DNA from: a virus
Reading direction: 5' to 3' (one strand)
DNA length: 60,702 nucleotides
Virus record (IMG/VR): IMGVR_UViG_3300025872_000060
Coordinates: 1 to 60,702 of that record
The first letter of the stretch is position 1. Each line of letters starts with the position of its first letter. Below, one piece after another: positions 12,019 to 60,136 of the stretch. The notes beneath the pieces are model-generated. The model made no database searches and was not told the DNA's origin. It saw nothing but the letters and a program-made list of their open reading frames with translations. The translations under genes were made by a program, and so were the position numbers.

Positions 12019-12175
12019 GTTTGTCTCCTTGCTCGACTGGACGCGGTTTTGACGCCCAAGAAGAAAGGCTGCCGCACGAGCGAATCGCGCAGCAGCCCAT
12101 GGGGGAAAAGATCAGGTTTGGCGCAGGCATTCTAGCAGGTTGCCCCTGCTTGTCAAGCCCGCTTGACGGATTTCT

Positions 12176-14784: not shown

Positions 14785-15085
14785 CAAATGCACAAGCCGC
14801 GCAGTTGTTCCGTTCGGGAGCGACCCTTGCGGCTGCGCGGCTTGCGTCCCCTTGCGCTCTCGGGGTATCTATTCCCTCTAGCACGCATGAGAGGCATTAC
14901 CTCATGCGCACACGGATGCCGTTAGCACGGCATTTTCTCGCGTCCATCAGAACCTTGCAAGGTGTTGCGTGGCTGCCAAAGTCCACTCTGATGATGCGCG
15001 TCCTGCGAGGGCACGCAGGTTTCCCTGCCGCACCGTGCCTAAGCTCTGTTTATACTCGCACGGTCGAGTGTCATTCGGTGCTTTG
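14785..15085 (-). ncRNA. Candidate structured RNA in a gene-free 300-nt stretch
   Basis: This stretch follows a standard leader motif (about 15083) but has no convincing ORF; the only one directly behind the leader is 11 codons long. It is dense in inverted repeats: CAAGCCGCGCAG (14793-14804) with CTGCGCGGCTTG (14833-14844), CGCATGAG (14884-14891) with CTCATGCG (14901-14908), ATGCCG (14916-14921) with CGGCAT (14928-14933), CCTTGCAAGG, and a GGCAGG-GAAA-CCTGC hairpin near 15030. This suggests a folded RNA with its own leader. A short peptide gene or decayed gene remains possible. Confidence 0.4.
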
Positions 15086-15106
15086 TTTTGACGCCATGTT
15101 CAGTTG

Positions 15107-20051: not shown

Positions 20052-20126
20052 GGTTTGTTCAAGCGTCCAGCGACCGCAAGCCCAATGGGTTCATCCCCTC
20101 GCTGGGGGGATAACTCCATTGTAGTG

Positions 20127-23686: not shown

Positions 23687-23707
23687 CGTGTGATCCCATT
23701 GTAGTGC

Positions 23708-35953: not shown

Positions 35954-36156
35954 GACTTCGCCTCCAGTGCGTCACTCATTGTAACAGCACCATTTTCCAC
36001 AGTCAAGTAGCCAGAAGGAAGATTCCGTGCACTTCAAAAGAACAATTTCGCAATATGGGGTTTCTACTCCGCCTCAGGAAAACTGAACGATAACCTTCGC
36101 AGTGCGCTCTTCCTCTCCCCACGCTGTCACAAAAAGCGTTTCCAGTGCAGCTATTA

Positions 36157-37614: not shown

Positions 37615-37815
37615 AACCCGCCCTGCCGAAGGGGGCCTTCTTCAGCAGGGCGGGTATACGAAAGGAAAAGGCGCCTCGCCCTCTATCCGCGCCCGCGAAG
37701 ACGCAGAGTCGTCCCGGGGCGAGACGCCGAGAGGAGAATGAACGACGCGGACGGGGGGTGCCCGCGCCGCCCAGAGTTCAGAAAACACCTTGGAGGGCAG
37801 TTTCCTAAGCCCATT
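37615..37815 (-). ncRNA. Candidate short RNA or small gene between promoter and terminator
   Basis: CCCACTACAATGG (about 37811-37823) starts a stretch of about 160 nt that ends at the strong hairpin CCCGCCCTGC/GCAGGGCGGG (37615-37655). No ORF stands out; the best candidates are 43 codons starting inside the signal and 48 codons from a GTG. The stretch includes GC-rich self-complementary pieces (GTCTCGCCCCGGGACGAC). A non-coding transcript is therefore possible. Confidence 0.35.
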
Positions 37816-37842
37816 GTAGTGGGCAAGAAGACAGCAGCCTCG

Positions 37843-38163
37843 TCATACTGTCTTTTTTGACGAGATCACCGTGACGTCTCCCGTCACCACAGGAGTCCTA
37901 GGGATGCCTCCCAGCCGCTCCAGCCCCAGATGAGCCGCCACGCGGCGAGCCTCCAGCAAGGCTGTCTCGCGGCTGGAGGAGTCCACGGAGTGGCAGACCT
38001 CCCAGTGGAGCAGTTGCCCAGACAGAAGGCTCCCTGCGTTCGCCCAAGCCTCTATCTCCCCGTGAAGCATCACGATGAGGAACGCCTTGGGGGCGTCGTC
38101 ATCAGCCGCATCCCCATGGGGAGTCTCGTAGCCAATGAAGATCTTGTCCAGTTGCTTCGTCAT
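37843..38163 (-). CDS. Hypothetical protein, 106 residues
   Basis: Starts M-T-K-Q-L-D-K-I-F at 38163, 7 nt after the TAGAAT of CCCACTAGAATGG, so the mRNA is leaderless or nearly so. Contains A-F-L-I-V-M-L-H-G-E-I-E-A-W and L-L-E-A-R-R-V-A-A-H-L-G-L. No family recognised. Confidence 0.65.
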   Translation of the reverse strand: MTKQLDKIFIGYETPHGDAADDDAPKAFLIVMLHGEIEAWANAGSLLSGQLLHWEVCHSVDSSSRETALLEARRVAAHLGLERLGGIPRTPVVTGDVTVISSKKTV

Positions 38164-38244
38164 GAATGCCATTCTAGTGGGCTGCCTTCAGCCACCCAGC
38201 CACATGGGGAATCTTCCCAAGAAGTGCGCTCAAGCCTGCTGCGT

Positions 38245-48025: not shown

Positions 48026-48040
48026 TAGCAGACATTGTAG
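48026..48040 (-). promoter_or_regulatory. CACTACAATG signal of the 197-residue gene
   Basis: The minus strand reads GGCACTACAATGTCTGC. TACAAT is a good -10 candidate; the gene at 47379-47972 follows after about 60 nt. Confidence 0.5.
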
Positions 48041-48143
48041 TGCCTTCGCACCTCGTGTCAATCAGGTGAGACAAATTTTCTTCTGCACGGAATGTTTGGA
48101 AGCGGAGCCTGTGAGTCTTCGTGACTCATGCAGTTCTTGAAGT

Positions 48144-52054: not shown

Positions 52055-52070
52055 GATTAAACTCCTGAAA

Positions 52071-52143
52071 TGCCCCGAGAGAGACTTGCACTCTCCTAAC
52101 ACGGATTAAAAGTCCGTTGCTAAACTACCTCAGCTATCGGGGC
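52071..52143 (-). tRNA. tRNA-Lys (UUU)
   Basis: Acceptor GCCCCGA pairs with TCGGGGC, anticodon stem ACGGA/TCCGT encloses CTTTTAA (anticodon TTT), and the T arm is GAGAG-TGCAAGT-CTCTC. Discriminator A. The T loop starts TGC instead of the usual TTC, which is unusual. CACTACAATG lies about 65 nt upstream of it. Confidence 0.93.
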
Positions 52144-52203
52144 TAAAATGATGTGCTTTCCACCTGCATGGCACCATGCATATGCATGCATTATTCGGCG
52201 CGC

Positions 52204-52246: not shown

Positions 52247-52921
52247 CTAGAACTTTACCTTCCTAGACGGAAGACCCTTCCATTCCTTCATGCCCCAGAT
52301 CTCATACGGTCTGCCTTCCCAAAGCCATTCACTCAAGGTGCAGCAGAAAAAATCCTTCAGTTTTTCCTTTGAGCTTGAATTCGTGCGCAAGGAAAGCTCC
52401 AGCAGCGGGTCGAGAAGAGATCGGCTTTTTTTGAAGCAATCACACATGGAGGCAGATAATCCAGCAGAAAATGACTTGTCTTCGCTTGCTTGCAGAAGCG
52501 ACATCTTGTTCCATCCCTTATGCAGGACTATCATCACATTTTTATCGAAATCGGCGATGATGACTTCCGTAGTCCCGCCATCATTGCATTTTGATCCCCA
52601 GAGCACGAGGCAAGATCCAGAATCTGGCATGATGCTATGAACATATGAAAGAATGCATTGATTAATGAACTCTCCAGATGTCCTCTGAGTGCTCCTAGGA
52701 ATCCTCATCATGACAGTCTCGTCATATGGCAGCACTATCTCACGAGGAATGCGGTACTCTTCAATTGAGTTTTCTGCCATGAAGCCAATAGACATGTCCT
52801 CGGAACCCGAGAATACCATGCCACATATGCGATAGAGAATTCCGCTCCCGCTCTCGACAGGGAGTGGACATGACATGTCTCCCCTTCTGGACAACGAGCG
52901 ACTTTTTATCTTCAATGGCAT
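52247..52921 (-). CDS. Hypothetical protein, 224 residues
   Basis: Starts M-P-L-K-I-K-S-R-S at 52921, six nt after CTACAATCC, so again with almost no leader. Contains Y-R-I-C-G-M-V-F-S-G-S-E-D, E-V-I-I-A-D-F-D-K-N-V-M-I-V and W-E-G-R-P-Y-E-I-W-G. No known domain recognised. Confidence 0.6.
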   Translation of the reverse strand: MPLKIKSRSLSRRGDMSCPLPVESGSGILYRICGMVFSGSEDMSIGFMAENSIEEYRIPREIVLPYDETVMMRIPRSTQRTSGEFINQCILSYVHSIMPDSGSCLVLWGSKCNDGGTTEVIIADFDKNVMIVLHKGWNKMSLLQASEDKSFSAGLSASMCDCFKKSRSLLDPLLELSLRTNSSSKEKLKDFFCCTLSEWLWEGRPYEIWGMKEWKGLPSRKVKF

Positions 52922-52967
52922 ATCTGGATTGTAGGATTCACGCTACAACCTGTCAAGTGCCTGAAGG

Positions 52968-53159: not shown

Positions 53160-53312
53160 TTATTTTTCCCCAAATCGTCTTCCGCACATCGCCTCCATGC
53201 GCGCCTGATTCTCGTAGTGTCTCTTAAACCTTCTTTGCAAAACATCCATGAATAAGATAGTCAGAAAGAAAGGTACAGAAAATGCAGAGACCAGGATAAG
53301 GATATTCAACAT
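53160..53312 (-). CDS. Single-span membrane protein, 50 residues
   Basis: ATG at 53312 with GGAGGAT upstream, overlapping the sigma-like gene by 7 nt. The product M-L-N-I-L-I-L-V-S-A-F has one hydrophobic helix (about 3-24) and a charged end R-R-F-K-R-H-Y-E-N-Q. Confidence 0.6.
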   Translation of the reverse strand: MLNILILVSAFSVPFFLTILFMDVLQRRFKRHYENQARMEAMCGRRFGEK

Positions 53313-53809
53313 GTTATCCTCCATGCCTGCTTGGATGCCATATCTCTAAGCTTTGTAGGGCATATCTTTGCCATCTTCGCGGCTTCCGTCTTGGAGTATC
53401 CGTCCAGAAGAGCCTTGCAGATGACTCCAAACTGCTCTGGCAAATCTGAAAGCAAATCATCAAAATTTGACTCTGCGCGAGATGGTATTGATTTTACCGA
53501 GTCTAGGCTTACTTTTTTGAGCCTGTGCTGCCCGTTCCTCCCGTCCTCTCTGCGATGTCCATCTAGAACCATCAACTGGGTTCTTCGGGATAAGAAGGAC
53601 ATGCTCTGACCTCGGGAGGCGATGTACACAAATCCCTCAATTGCGTAGTCATCGCCTCCCTTGCCATCCACCAGGTTCTTGCCCAGCCTGCGCATGTAGC
53701 GAGCGGCGGATGCCGACGCAATGCGTATGTATGACTCAAACTCCTCAGATGTCATGTTCTCCATGAAGGCGGCGAGAACATCCATTTCTGAGGCGGTGAG
53801 ATCACGCAT
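53306..53809 (-). CDS. Sigma-70-like (ECF-type) transcription factor or HTH regulator
   Basis: The 167-residue protein has a region-2-like part (A-A-R-Y-M-R-R-L-G-K-N followed by D-D-Y-A-I-E-G-F-V-Y-I-A), a basic linker and a region-4-like helix-turn-helix L-L-D-G-Y-S-K-T-E-A-A-K-M-A. Size and order resemble small sigma factors. It might direct polymerase to the motif promoters of this genome, which is speculation. CACTAGAATG lies 9 nt before its ATG, so it is read from a nearly leaderless mRNA. Confidence 0.6.
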   Translation of the reverse strand: MRDLTASEMDVLAAFMENMTSEEFESYIRIASASAARYMRRLGKNLVDGKGGDDYAIEGFVYIASRGQSMSFLSRRTQLMVLDGHRREDGRNGQHRLKKVSLDSVKSIPSRAESNFDDLLSDLPEQFGVICKALLDGYSKTEAAKMAKICPTKLRDMASKQAWRITC

Positions 53810-53814
53810 GTCTT

Positions 53815-54015
53815 CTACATTCTAGTGGTCTTCTGGGCGAACCACAGGCAATAAACCCAAGGAATGATCACGATGCCTGCGATTGCTGCTGAAACCCGCA
53901 GCCTGCCTTGATCCATCCATGTCGGAAAATATTCGCCAATCACCAGTAGCGCGATCCCCGCTGCACAGATGGATAGGATGATCGATGCGTAGACGGCGGT
54001 GTGGATGTTTTTCAT
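53815..54015 (-). CDS. Small two-helix membrane protein, 66 residues
   Basis: Starts M-K-N-I-H-T-A-V-Y-A-S. Two hydrophobic helices (about 8-28 and 42-60). Its last codons, T-R-M, are the translated CACTAGAATG signal of the sigma-like gene. Overlaps the upstream gene by 4 nt. Confidence 0.65.
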   Translation of the reverse strand: MKNIHTAVYASIILSICAAGIALLVIGEYFPTWMDQGRLRVSAAIAGIVIIPWVYCLWFAQKTTRM

Positions 54016-54926
54016 TCTTCATCTCCTTCAGAGGCTTTGTCGGGATCCACAAGCCGGCATCCGCTGGTAGTGAGATCCCTCCAGTATTGCGCCCGCTTTT
54101 CAGCGCAGCATTCGTGATATGCAAAGTCCGCACCTGCGAGACAGGTAATAAAAGCCCCTAAAGATCCGATCCCACCAAGGATAAGACATCCCTTCATGCA
54201 TGCCGCGACGGCTGGACCAGAATATGCGCAATGGCTGGCACACCATTTGAAGAGCCCTGCTCCTAGGGTCAGCGAAGCTGGCACACATGCAGCGATGAGC
54301 ATGAAGTATCTTGCGCTGCAGCCATGCAATCCCTCCCTGAGCGAGCGGAGGAATCCGCAGCATTGGATGCCACCCTTGCCCATCCACTCGGGATCGTAAC
54401 ACTCGATGTGACTTCCGCCCTCCTCCGAAGTGGGCTGAATGTCTTCGATGTAAGAATGTGCCTCTTCTTCCGTTTCCATCATCCGCAGGGGAATAATTGA
54501 AGATACTGATGCAGCGACGGCATTCTTACCGCCATCATCTACCCTTACCTGTTGGTCGAGTACTGCGACAACGAAATGATGTGCGCAGCCATCCTGCACC
54601 GTGAATCCAGAGGCGATAGAAACGATCTGCTCATGCGCGAACAAATGACCCGATGAGCTGAAGACTTCTGATGAAATTACAGGATCGATACGAATCCTGT
54701 TGGTTTCGATCCACAAGTTCTCGCTAAGAACTTGCCCAGAAGCATCAACCCATGAAACGATAGATCCTTCAATGACGAGCGCTTGCTCGCTGGCATTTAG
54801 CCTATTCCCCGTAGCCATTTCCCACTGCTTGCAGACCTTCATATCGTTCCAATCAGCCAAGCATTTATTGGAGAATGCACACCCAATCACGAGCAAAGAC
54901 AAAAACTTACAGAAAGTGTTAGGCAT
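54012..54926 (-). CDS. Secreted or membrane Cys-rich protein, 304 residues
   Basis: An N-terminal signal peptide (M-P-N-T-F-C-K-F-L-S-L-L-V-I-G to A24) is followed by a soluble part with P-V-I-S-S-E-V-F-S-S-S-G and many Cys, and then hydrophobic helices around 205-235 and 242-270 (Y-F-M-L-I-A-A-C-V, L-I-L-G-G-I-G-S-L-G). Ends in an acidic tail. No known family recognised. It is coupled to the 66-residue membrane protein. Confidence 0.65.
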   Translation of the reverse strand: MPNTFCKFLSLLVIGCAFSNKCLADWNDMKVCKQWEMATGNRLNASEQALVIEGSIVSWVDASGQVLSENLWIETNRIRIDPVISSEVFSSSGHLFAHEQIVSIASGFTVQDGCAHHFVVAVLDQQVRVDDGGKNAVAASVSSIIPLRMMETEEEAHSYIEDIQPTSEEGGSHIECYDPEWMGKGGIQCCGFLRSLREGLHGCSARYFMLIAACVPASLTLGAGLFKWCASHCAYSGPAVAACMKGCLILGGIGSLGAFITCLAGADFAYHECCAEKRAQYWRDLTTSGCRLVDPDKASEGDEE

Positions 54927-55876: not shown

Positions 55877-56509
55877 ATGAAAAATTTATTTGTATTGACA
55901 ACTTGTTTATGTATGGGCGCACAAGCTGGCGCCGATTTGGTGGATGGAAGTTTCGAATCTTTCGATGTGCCTGGATATGGATTCTATTCTGGAGGATTCG
56001 ATACGCCATGGCTCACGACAGCTCCCGATAATCTAATTGAGGGGTGGTCAGATGGATTTCTCGGCGTGCCCGCGTATGAAGGCAGCCACTTTGCGGAACT
56101 CAACGCGAACTACGCATCGACGCTCTATCAAGATGTCAACGGTCTCGGCGACTTCCAGCAGATCAACTGGCGTTTCGCGCACAGGGGCCGCGACGGCGTC
56201 GACACCATGAGGTTCACCATCACCGACCTCGGCACCGATCAGCAGTTCGGCGGCGGCGATGACACGATACTCTTCACGGGAGATTTTTCCGACGGAAACA
56301 CGGCATGGGGTCTTTACGGCGGTACTGTCACCTCCGTAGGCAATCTAACTAGGTTTGCCTTCGAGGCACTAAGCGCAGTCGGCGGAAGCACGCAGGGCAA
56401 CTTCCTCGATGATTGCGGATTTGGACAAAATGTCGTGGTTCCCGCTCCAGGAGCCGCATCATTGCTATTGCTGGCAGGGGTTTTGTGTGGAAGAAAAAGA
56501 AGAAGATAA
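55877..56509 (+). CDS. Secreted PEP-CTERM protein, 210 residues
   Basis: An N-terminal signal peptide (M-K-N-L-F-V-L-T-T-C to A19) precedes a beta-rich domain with G-S-F-E-S-F and F-A-E-L-N-A-N-Y, typical of PEP-CTERM cargo. The C-terminus is V-V-P-A-P-G-A-A-S-L-L-L-L-A-G-V then G-R-K-R-R-R: motif, hydrophobic helix and basic end of the exosortase sorting signal, V-P-A-P-G-A type. It is likely exported and processed by a host exosortase. Confidence 0.85.
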   Translation: MKNLFVLTTCLCMGAQAGADLVDGSFESFDVPGYGFYSGGFDTPWLTTAPDNLIEGWSDGFLGVPAYEGSHFAELNANYASTLYQDVNGLGDFQQINWRFAHRGRDGVDTMRFTITDLGTDQQFGGGDDTILFTGDFSDGNTAWGLYGGTVTSVGNLTRFAFEALSAVGGSTQGNFLDDCGFGQNVVVPAPGAASLLLLAGVLCGRKRRR

Positions 56510-58195: not shown

Positions 58196-58208
58196 GGGTC
58201 AATTGTAG
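58196..58208 (-). promoter_or_regulatory. GCTACAATTG signal upstream of csrA
   Basis: The minus strand reads TTGCTACAATTGACC about 35 nt before the start of csrA. TACAAT is the same -10-like hexamer as in the other signals, without the following ATG. Confidence 0.4.
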
Positions 58209-58255
58209 CAAGTTATTTACAGCTTGTCAATCAAAAAACAGAATCTGGCGGAAAA

Positions 58256-59110: not shown

Positions 59111-60136
59111 TTAGACTATATCTTGTAATGTTTTCTCTCTGTATGCCAGATCAAGGTCATGCTCCACCATCATCTTCGCCAATTGTTCAACAGATACTTT
59201 AGGATCCCATCCAAACTTTTTCTTAGCTTTCGAAGGATCTCCAAGCAGCTGATCGACTTCAGCTGGTCGAAAATATCTAGGATCTATTTCGACGAAATCC
59301 CTATAGTCAAGTCCTGCTGCGGAGAAAGCCATCTCACAGAAGTCTCTGACAGATACCATCCTTCCAGTAGCTATTACATAATCACTTGGTTCATCTTGCT
59401 GAAGCATGAGCCACATGGCTTCTACAAAATCTCCAGCGAACCCCCAATCTCGTAAGGCATCCATATTTCCAAGATAAAGTTTCTTCTGAATGCCCATCTT
59501 TATGCGACCAACGGCTCTCGTGATCTTGCGCGTCACAAATGTCTCGCCACGGCGCGGACTTTCGTGATTGTATAGAATTCCGCATGATGCGTGTATTCCA
59601 TAACTTTCTCTATAATTTATTGTAAGCCAATGAGAAAACAACTTGGCGCATCCGTAGGGTGATCGCGGCCAGAAAGGAGTCGTCTCCTTCTGCGGCACTT
59701 CCTGCACCTTGCCAAACATCTCGCTGGAAGATGCTTGATAGAAACGGATAGTCTTTCCAGAATACTCTTGCGCACACTTGACTGCGTTAAGTATCTTTGC
59801 CGTACCTATCGCATCTATCTCGCATGTATAAACTGGCTGGTCAAAAGAAATCTTCACATGGCTTTGTGCCGCGAGATTGTAAACTTCGTCTGGGCTAATC
59901 TTGCTAACTATTGAAGAAATGCATGAAGCATCTGTCATGTCGCCATGATGCAAGAAGAATCTTGTCTCTGGATCTCGTGGATCCTTCATGAGATGATCTA
60001 TCCTCTCCGTGTTGAAGCTTGATGACCTTCTCACCATTCCATGGACGGTGTAACCTTTTTTGAGAAGAAATTCAGAAAGGTAGCTTCCGTCCTGTCCCGT
60101 CACTCCTGTTATGAACGCAATTTTCCTGTTAGGCAT
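59111..60136 (-). CDS. gmd: GDP-mannose 4,6-dehydratase
   Basis: The 341-residue protein has [11 protein letters not shown] (Rossmann), [27 protein letters not shown] and S-P-Y-G-C-A-K (YxxxK), then [16 protein letters not shown], diagnostic of Gmd. It converts GDP-mannose to GDP-4-keto-6-deoxymannose, the substrate of the fucose synthase at 49954. The two genes are 9 kb apart, both on the minus strand. Confidence 0.96.

Follow-up and report, generated by a model that had tools for sequence, protein, structure and literature searches.

The window analyzed here is a 60.7-kb virus record; within its first 54 kb, almost every gene is encoded on the minus strand. ORF 53306–53809, a minus-strand frame open from its ATG, encodes 167 amino acids and is preceded on the same strand by CACTAGAATG; an earlier note had proposed it as a sigma-like factor read from a nearly leaderless message. 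Both the frame and the motif are real: CACTAGAATG with at most one mismatch occurs 11 times in the window, each time as a minus-strand match; chance predicts 2.14, and 100 shuffles gave 7 at most. The elements of the locus are as follows.

53306–53809, minus strand: orphan 167-aa ORF, candidate divergent ECF-type sigma factor; open frame, no curated family above cut-off, sub-threshold region 4 resemblance
53818–53827, minus strand: CACTAGAATG, with TAGAAT at 53819–53824 as the proposed -10 box and 9 nt between its last T and the ATG
53321–53461, minus strand: residues 117–163, sigma region 4-like helix-turn-helix (DDLLSDLPEQF...GYSKTEAAKMAKICPTKLRDMASKQAW), from hmmsearch, hhalign, a low-confidence four-helix model and non-significant Foldseek matches
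53501–53653, minus strand: residues 53–103, by-eye likeness to sigma regions 2.2–2.4 (DDYAIEGFVYIA; VLDGHRRED...KKVSLDSV), where the global hhalign alignment is co-linear only from about residue 69

Two ORFs, 54012–54926 and 53815–54015, are closely packed ahead of the frame (4-nt overlap, then 5 nt from stop to ATG), and the motif extends over the final codons of the second. The ATG inside CACTAGAATG was rejected as a start codon because the TAG directly after it is the stop of the 66-aa ORF 53815–54015; the likely start of ORF 53306–53809 is therefore the ATG 9 nt behind TAGAAT. Genes are near-leaderless in this sense when a -10 box lies about 6–12 bp before the start codon, as it does here, so "nearly leaderless" describes the gene fairly, provided that the motif acts as a -10 box and with the transcript start putative. 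No TTGAC lies in the -35 range before 53827, which leaves this copy with the -10 box alone, and a weak AGAAG before the ORF could serve as a ribosome site.

The best relatives of the GDP-mannose dehydratase-like gene at 59111–60136 are in Planctomycetota, several of them Phycisphaerales, with up to 74% identity, which hints at a host from this group but does not establish it. The phage record also encodes, at 55877–56509 on the plus strand, a protein that looks secreted and, by eye, ends in a PEP-CTERM-like stretch (VPAPGAASLLLLAGVLCGRKRRR).

Searches of viral contigs, phages, PDB sequences, genome contigs and plasmids returned no usable homolog of the 167-aa protein. When 392 Planctomycetota genomes were searched with it, 106 matched at E <= 1; the best matches, in the part of their alignments inspected, had no sigma-factor likeness, and the highest-ranking match is in antisense orientation to a second long frame. 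Two other right-arm genes had no viral relatives either, so the arm that holds ORF 53306–53809 stands without comparison to any relative. Likewise, tblastn against every record in the files beginning L001, L002, L005, L143 and L175, which include the relatives' records L002–L004, L143, L144 and L175–L177, gave no match to the protein; the neighborhood of this gene lies outside these fragments, so the negative result carries little weight.

A probable sigma70-type -10 box in the window and its relatives

The motif before the frame belongs to a family that follows the coding strand. All ten copies of CACTA[C/G]AAT are on the minus (coding) strand. For the shorter CTA[C/G]AAT the counts are 17 on the coding strand, where 3.06 are expected and 50 resamplings gave no more than 9, and 3 on the plus strand. 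The box reads TASAAT, not TATAAT, in all ten CACTANAAT sites. TTGAC-N16/17-TASAAT is found five times on the coding strand and not once on the plus strand, with 0.06 expected per strand, and through these five sites the family as a whole has the sigma70-type arrangement (TTGACA 16–18 bp before the -10 box). Moreover, at six of the 17 coding-strand CTA[C/G]AAT sites (53825, 52934, 42786, 39510, 38177 and 23704) an ORF of 50 aa or more starts with its ATG 6–11 nt behind the box, as happens at none of the other 11; for distances of 5–11 nt, a range chosen after the sites were seen, and a background of 6.6%, the binomial P is 5e-4. The sites of the family, all on the minus strand, include:

52928–52956, minus strand: TTGACA-N17-TACAAT, 6 nt before the ATG of ORF 52247–52921, the next large ORF downstream of ORF 53306–53809; the clearest sigma70-type near-leaderless promoter
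48034–48061, minus strand: TTGACA-N16-TACAAT, same motif family
58202–58230, minus strand: TTGACA-N17-TACAAT
35978–36006, minus strand: TTGACT-N17-TACAAT
12129–12156, minus strand: TTGACA-N16-TAGAAT
42779–42788, minus strand: CACTAGAATG, TAGAAT ending 8 nt before the ATG of the Cas12/TnpB-like ORF 40900–42771
39503–39512, minus strand: CACTACAATG, TACAAT ending 8 nt before an ATG
38170–38179, minus strand: CACTAGAATG, TAGAAT ending 7 nt before an ATG; kept in the relative G003
37812–37821, minus strand: CACTACAATG just past ORF 37843–38172; same place kept in G003 (position 717)
23697–23706, minus strand: CACTACAATG, TACAAT ending 11 nt before an ATG
20117–20126, minus strand: CACTACAATG, followed by a 65-nt leader, a small ORF and tRNA-Gly; conserved in G003 and, as CTAGAAT, in L176
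52210–52219, minus strand: CACTACAATG, the box ending 67 nt before tRNA-Lys (52071–52143)

The ATG of the CACTACAATG copy at 48033–48042 was dropped as a start codon, since a -10 box there would place the mRNA start behind that ATG. About ten CRISPR-like repeats of about 35 nt, mostly spaced by 65–68 nt, lie at 39841–40666 beside ORF 40900–42771; the only match of that ORF is a PHROG transposase family, and Cas12 is our own reading. The tRNA-Lys region (52069–52144, minus strand) is identical over 76 nt to L004 13512–13587, though the gene context differs.

Searching with the AAA ATPase and two neighboring genes recovered left-arm relatives: G003 (21.4 kb; L143/L144), L176 (an 18.0-kb contig, of which 13.9 kb was read) and two short contigs. 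CTA[C/G]AAT occurs on the coding strand only in both of the larger ones, eight times in G003 and four times in L176. In G003, three tRNA genes follow the motif: the distance from the end of CTACAAT is 10 nt for tRNA-Arg and 9 nt for tRNA-Ser, and that from the end of CTA[C/G]AAT is 31 nt for tRNA-Lys. One CTAGAAT of L176 ends 9 nt before tRNA-Ser, and in the window CTAAAAT is found 10 nt ahead of tRNA-Arg. Several sites have stayed with their genes across two or three phages, namely those before the small ORF upstream of tRNA-Gly, before the UvdE-like gene and before the gene at 38177. The near-leaderless arrangement is seen at one of the eight G003 sites and none of the four in L176. The leader of the small ORF (window 20117–19784, minus strand; G003 from 17488) holds a hairpin conserved in two phages (CCCCCCAGCGAGGGG), and the gene behind it, which has a membrane-type stretch, is kept in three.

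CACTA[C/G]AAT thus behaves as the -10 box of sigma70-type promoters. Because tRNA genes are not translated from a start codon, a role of the motif in transcription is the most likely one. Its pairing with TTGAC, its place before tRNAs and its conservation in relatives make the host sigma70 holoenzyme the most likely reader; such a constant reader fits a motif kept across relatives. Seven Planctomycetota genomes contain TTGACA-N16-18-TASAAT seven times, against one reversed control and one TATAAT version; these are small counts, and S stands for two bases, but they are consistent with the host enzyme as reader. TASAAT need not, then, be specific to the phage. The earlier note had spoken of two unusual promoter-like signals, and both are present with the gene behind one of them, but that one looks like an ordinary sigma70 -10 box.

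Close spacing of this kind has precedents. In TA-led, or leaderless, bacterial genes the start codon follows a TANNNT box by about 10 bp (PMC3160421), and in Deinococcus-Thermus a -10 motif is adjacent to ORFs, in Deinococcus about 6–7 bp before them (PMC12340547). As far as these sources describe them, the genes here are alike in placing a -10 box close to the start codon (6–11 nt) with no or almost no leader, and unlike in belonging to a phage, in often having CAC in front and in using a box whose third base is C or G.

A second signal replaced in concert

The left arm uses a second signal, motif 1 (GGCGTCAAAAC).

1717–32709, minus strand: 58 copies of GCGTCAAAAC, usually starting 26 nt before an ATG

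The core GCGTCAAAA occurs 58 times on the minus strand, each time followed by C, and once on the plus strand. An ORF ATG lies exactly 26 nt from the first G of GGCGTC in 33 of the 58 copies, and the motif stands before nearly every gene of the 30-kb left arm. It is a single block, with nothing clearly conserved further upstream and a purine-rich stretch between block and ATG. The copy at 15094 has no clear ORF behind it, and a Pistol ribozyme starts 25 nt downstream. That ribozyme (15009–15069, minus strand) scores 47.1 bits. Copies before the ribozyme and before longer hairpin leaders argue against motif 1 as a translation signal but do not settle the matter. Pairing of motif 1 with a phage RNA was dropped as an explanation, because the coding strand has only one copy of its complement, which is the reverse of the single plus-strand copy.

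Both relatives have replaced this signal. GCGTCAAAA is absent from G003, which has instead GTCCCGGC, 23 times on the coding strand and twice on the other; in 12 of the 23, an ATG follows 25 nt after the initial G of GCATYGTCCCGGC. The window, in turn, has no GTCCCGGC. L176 has neither string and carries CGTC[G/A]TCCCA with GG in front 17 times, nine of them with an ATG 26 nt behind. We searched 52 window genes for orthologs, leaving uncounted those matches that begin beyond residue 8. Where motif 1 genes could be placed, the relative's own version was found within 60 nt in 9 of 10 cases in G003 (GCATYGTCCCGGC) and 11 of 11 in L176 (GGCGTCRTCCCAG), and the single G003 exception has a one-base variant, GTCCCGGT. 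The three versions appear by eye to have a common frame (GGCGTC-AAAAC, GGCGTC-GTCCCAG and GCATC-GTCCCGGC), so one ancestral block seems to have been changed as a set.

The second signal is rewritten in concert in two relatives while the host-type motif is kept, and this is the strongest new result, beside the sigma question. Such a replacement points to a fast-evolving trans-acting factor as the reader; a motif that changes fits a reader that changes with the phage. The replacement also explains why motif 1, sought together with its spacing in viral contigs, turned up in no other record. Among the titles and abstract openings returned by searches of open-access papers, no phage paper described such a concerted change.

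Sigma-likeness of the 167-aa protein

Curated collections do not place the protein in a sigma family. Pfam, PHROGs, NCBIfam and PADLOC gave it no match above cut-off or at a significant E-value, the Pfam sigma models PF07638 and PF08281 had no match in the window, and no curated model over its cut-off assigns it to the ECF or sigma70 family. The best named model is nevertheless an NCBIfam sigma model (PRK12536, E = 0.02, residues 106–150), at 14.8 bits versus a cut-off of 250; the only Pfam row is a CENP-B-type helix-turn-helix (E = 0.059).

Profile comparisons give the C-terminal half a weak, sub-threshold resemblance to sigma region 4. We built a first ECF profile from 29 ECF sequences of planctomycete genomes and a wider one from 61 sequences. 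With the first, hmmsearch ranks ORF 53306–53809 first among 564 window frames (E = 0.086) and second in a larger set of 1132 frames (E = 0.17). Against the same 29 sequences, hhalign scores it 22.3, first of 279 window ORFs and matched by none of 100 shuffles; in global mode it is first of 248, one of 200 shuffles doing as well. Local alignments cover residues 114–163 and 124–163 (hmmsearch and hhalign), and the global one residues 69–167. Planctomycete ECF sigma factors (PF07638, Sigma70_ECF) are thus the best profile match of the C-terminal half, yet the family search did not find the protein, which is nowhere near the curated cut-off. With the wider profiles (61 sequences, hmmsearch) the ORF is absent among the matches listed, which weakens rather than strengthens the sigma case, while under hhalign with the widest profile the protein still beats 100 of 100 shuffles. 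The region 2.2 match, including D54..E58.F60, was made by eye only.

Structure prediction gave a similar picture. The whole-protein model was too poor for use (pLDDT 38), and the C-terminal 64 residues modeled alone gave four helices (pLDDT 61). Foldseek returned 18 matches for this model, all with E above 1; eight are sigma entries, SigR region 4 among them. In VIA-align 2 no Z exceeds 4.0; polyadenylate-binding domains head the list, and the best sigma entry reaches 3.0. None of these fold matches is significant, polyadenylate-binding proteins rank above the sigma entries, and UBA domains are also present.

A control puts these thresholds in perspective. The annotated phage sigma factor gp36 of phiEco32 also falls below its Pfam cut-off (18.3 versus 24 bits), so a failed threshold does not exclude a phage sigma factor. 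Compared with the 167-aa protein, gp36 scores 1.2 versus 7.8 bits on the first ECF profile and 8.5 versus 3.4 bits on the widest, where the hhalign probability is 46 for gp36 and 2.9 for our protein. The two proteins have no similarity by BLASTP (E = 0.61 over 15 residues), so that a phiEco32-type assignment finds no footing there. Sigma identity, and with it the earlier note's "sigma-like", is therefore a reasonable but weakly supported guess, and no score here demonstrates a sigma factor.

Readings of the locus and its possible target

Our leading explanation, put forward tentatively and with rather less than even confidence, is that ORF 53306–53809 encodes a small divergent ECF-type sigma factor, or a region 4-like DNA-binding protein, transcribed by the host from TAGAAT 9 nt upstream. 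The host enzyme would recognize this sigma70-type -10 box and, from the putative start point, produce an mRNA with a leader of a few nucleotides at most. Counting against the explanation are the lack of relatives, the silence of the Pfam sigma models, a region 2 seen mostly by eye, and the missing TTGAC of its promoter.

Almost as likely is a phage helix-turn-helix DNA-binding protein of an ordinary kind (a repressor, activator or small-terminase-like protein) in place of a sigma factor, with the -10 box read by the host as proposed. Only the C-terminal helix-turn-helix scores at all, the sole Pfam row is of the CENP-B type, and polyadenylate-binding and UBA domains are among the fold matches; set against this, the best NCBIfam model is a sigma factor, sigma entries make up 8 of the 18 Foldseek rows, and the global ECF alignment extends through residues 69–167. 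The packing of the three ORFs, the overlap of CACTAGAATG with the end of the upstream one, the lack of a TTGAC ahead of it and the AGAAG as a possible ribosome site are what one would expect if the string arose by chance in the end of ORF 53815–54015 and the gene were co-transcribed with that ORF and 54012–54926. We consider this unlikely, since the 10:0 strand bias of CACTA[C/G]AAT means that few of the ten are expected by chance, and the 9-nt spacing matches the other near-leaderless cases (6–11 nt).

The earlier note had further suggested that the protein might recognize its own promoter. A sigma factor reading CACTASAATG, its own promoter included, would explain why all ten sites have TASAAT in place of TATAAT, but the host enzyme is indicated by the TTGAC pairing (five sites), by the tRNAs that lie 9–10 nt behind the box in relatives and by several sites conserved in two relatives, and the planctomycete counts, small as they are, favor TASAAT over TATAAT in TTGACA-paired sites (seven versus one). 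We regard self-recognition as very improbable; a gene behind a host-read box need not recognize its own promoter.

If the 167-aa protein is a sigma factor, GGCGTCAAAAC would be a better target than CACTASAATG. Phages phiEco32 and 7-11 each encode their own sigma factor (gp36 in phiEco32) with a handful of phage-specific, single-block promoters; phiEco32 uses host-type promoters for one part of its genome and the short motif TAATGTATA for another, and the two related phages differ in the phage-sigma motif (PMC4331800). So far as that account goes, the likeness lies in a small (here candidate) phage sigma factor, in host-type promoters beside short single-block ones, and in a motif that differs between related phages. 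Unlike in phiEco32, the second signal here has 58 copies, nearly one per left-arm gene, and is not AT-rich, and the sigma factor is a candidate only. As a gene driven by a host motif with a sigma-like product, by analogy with phiEco32-like phages, ORF 53306–53809 is a natural candidate for reading GGCGTCAAAAC. Following phages that have their own sigma factor, one may guess that the protein directs polymerase to the 58 copies, so that host-read genes would switch on a second set. Other phage genes, inside or outside the window, could supply the reader.

The fullest version of this idea is that the protein is the trans-acting reader of GGCGTCAAAAC, that in this phage group almost all genes of one arm have a short single-block promoter each, that the sigma factor shifts its specificity in step with dozens of promoters, and that sister phages come to have mutually unreadable codes while the host-type promoter stays common to them; we think it rather unlikely as a whole. 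On its own, a host-type promoter with hardly any leader behind it would be nothing unusual. Should GGCGTCAAAAC have another reader than this protein, that reader is still to be found; if one small protein does read it, these phages would offer a natural series for asking how dozens of sites can change their promoter code together.
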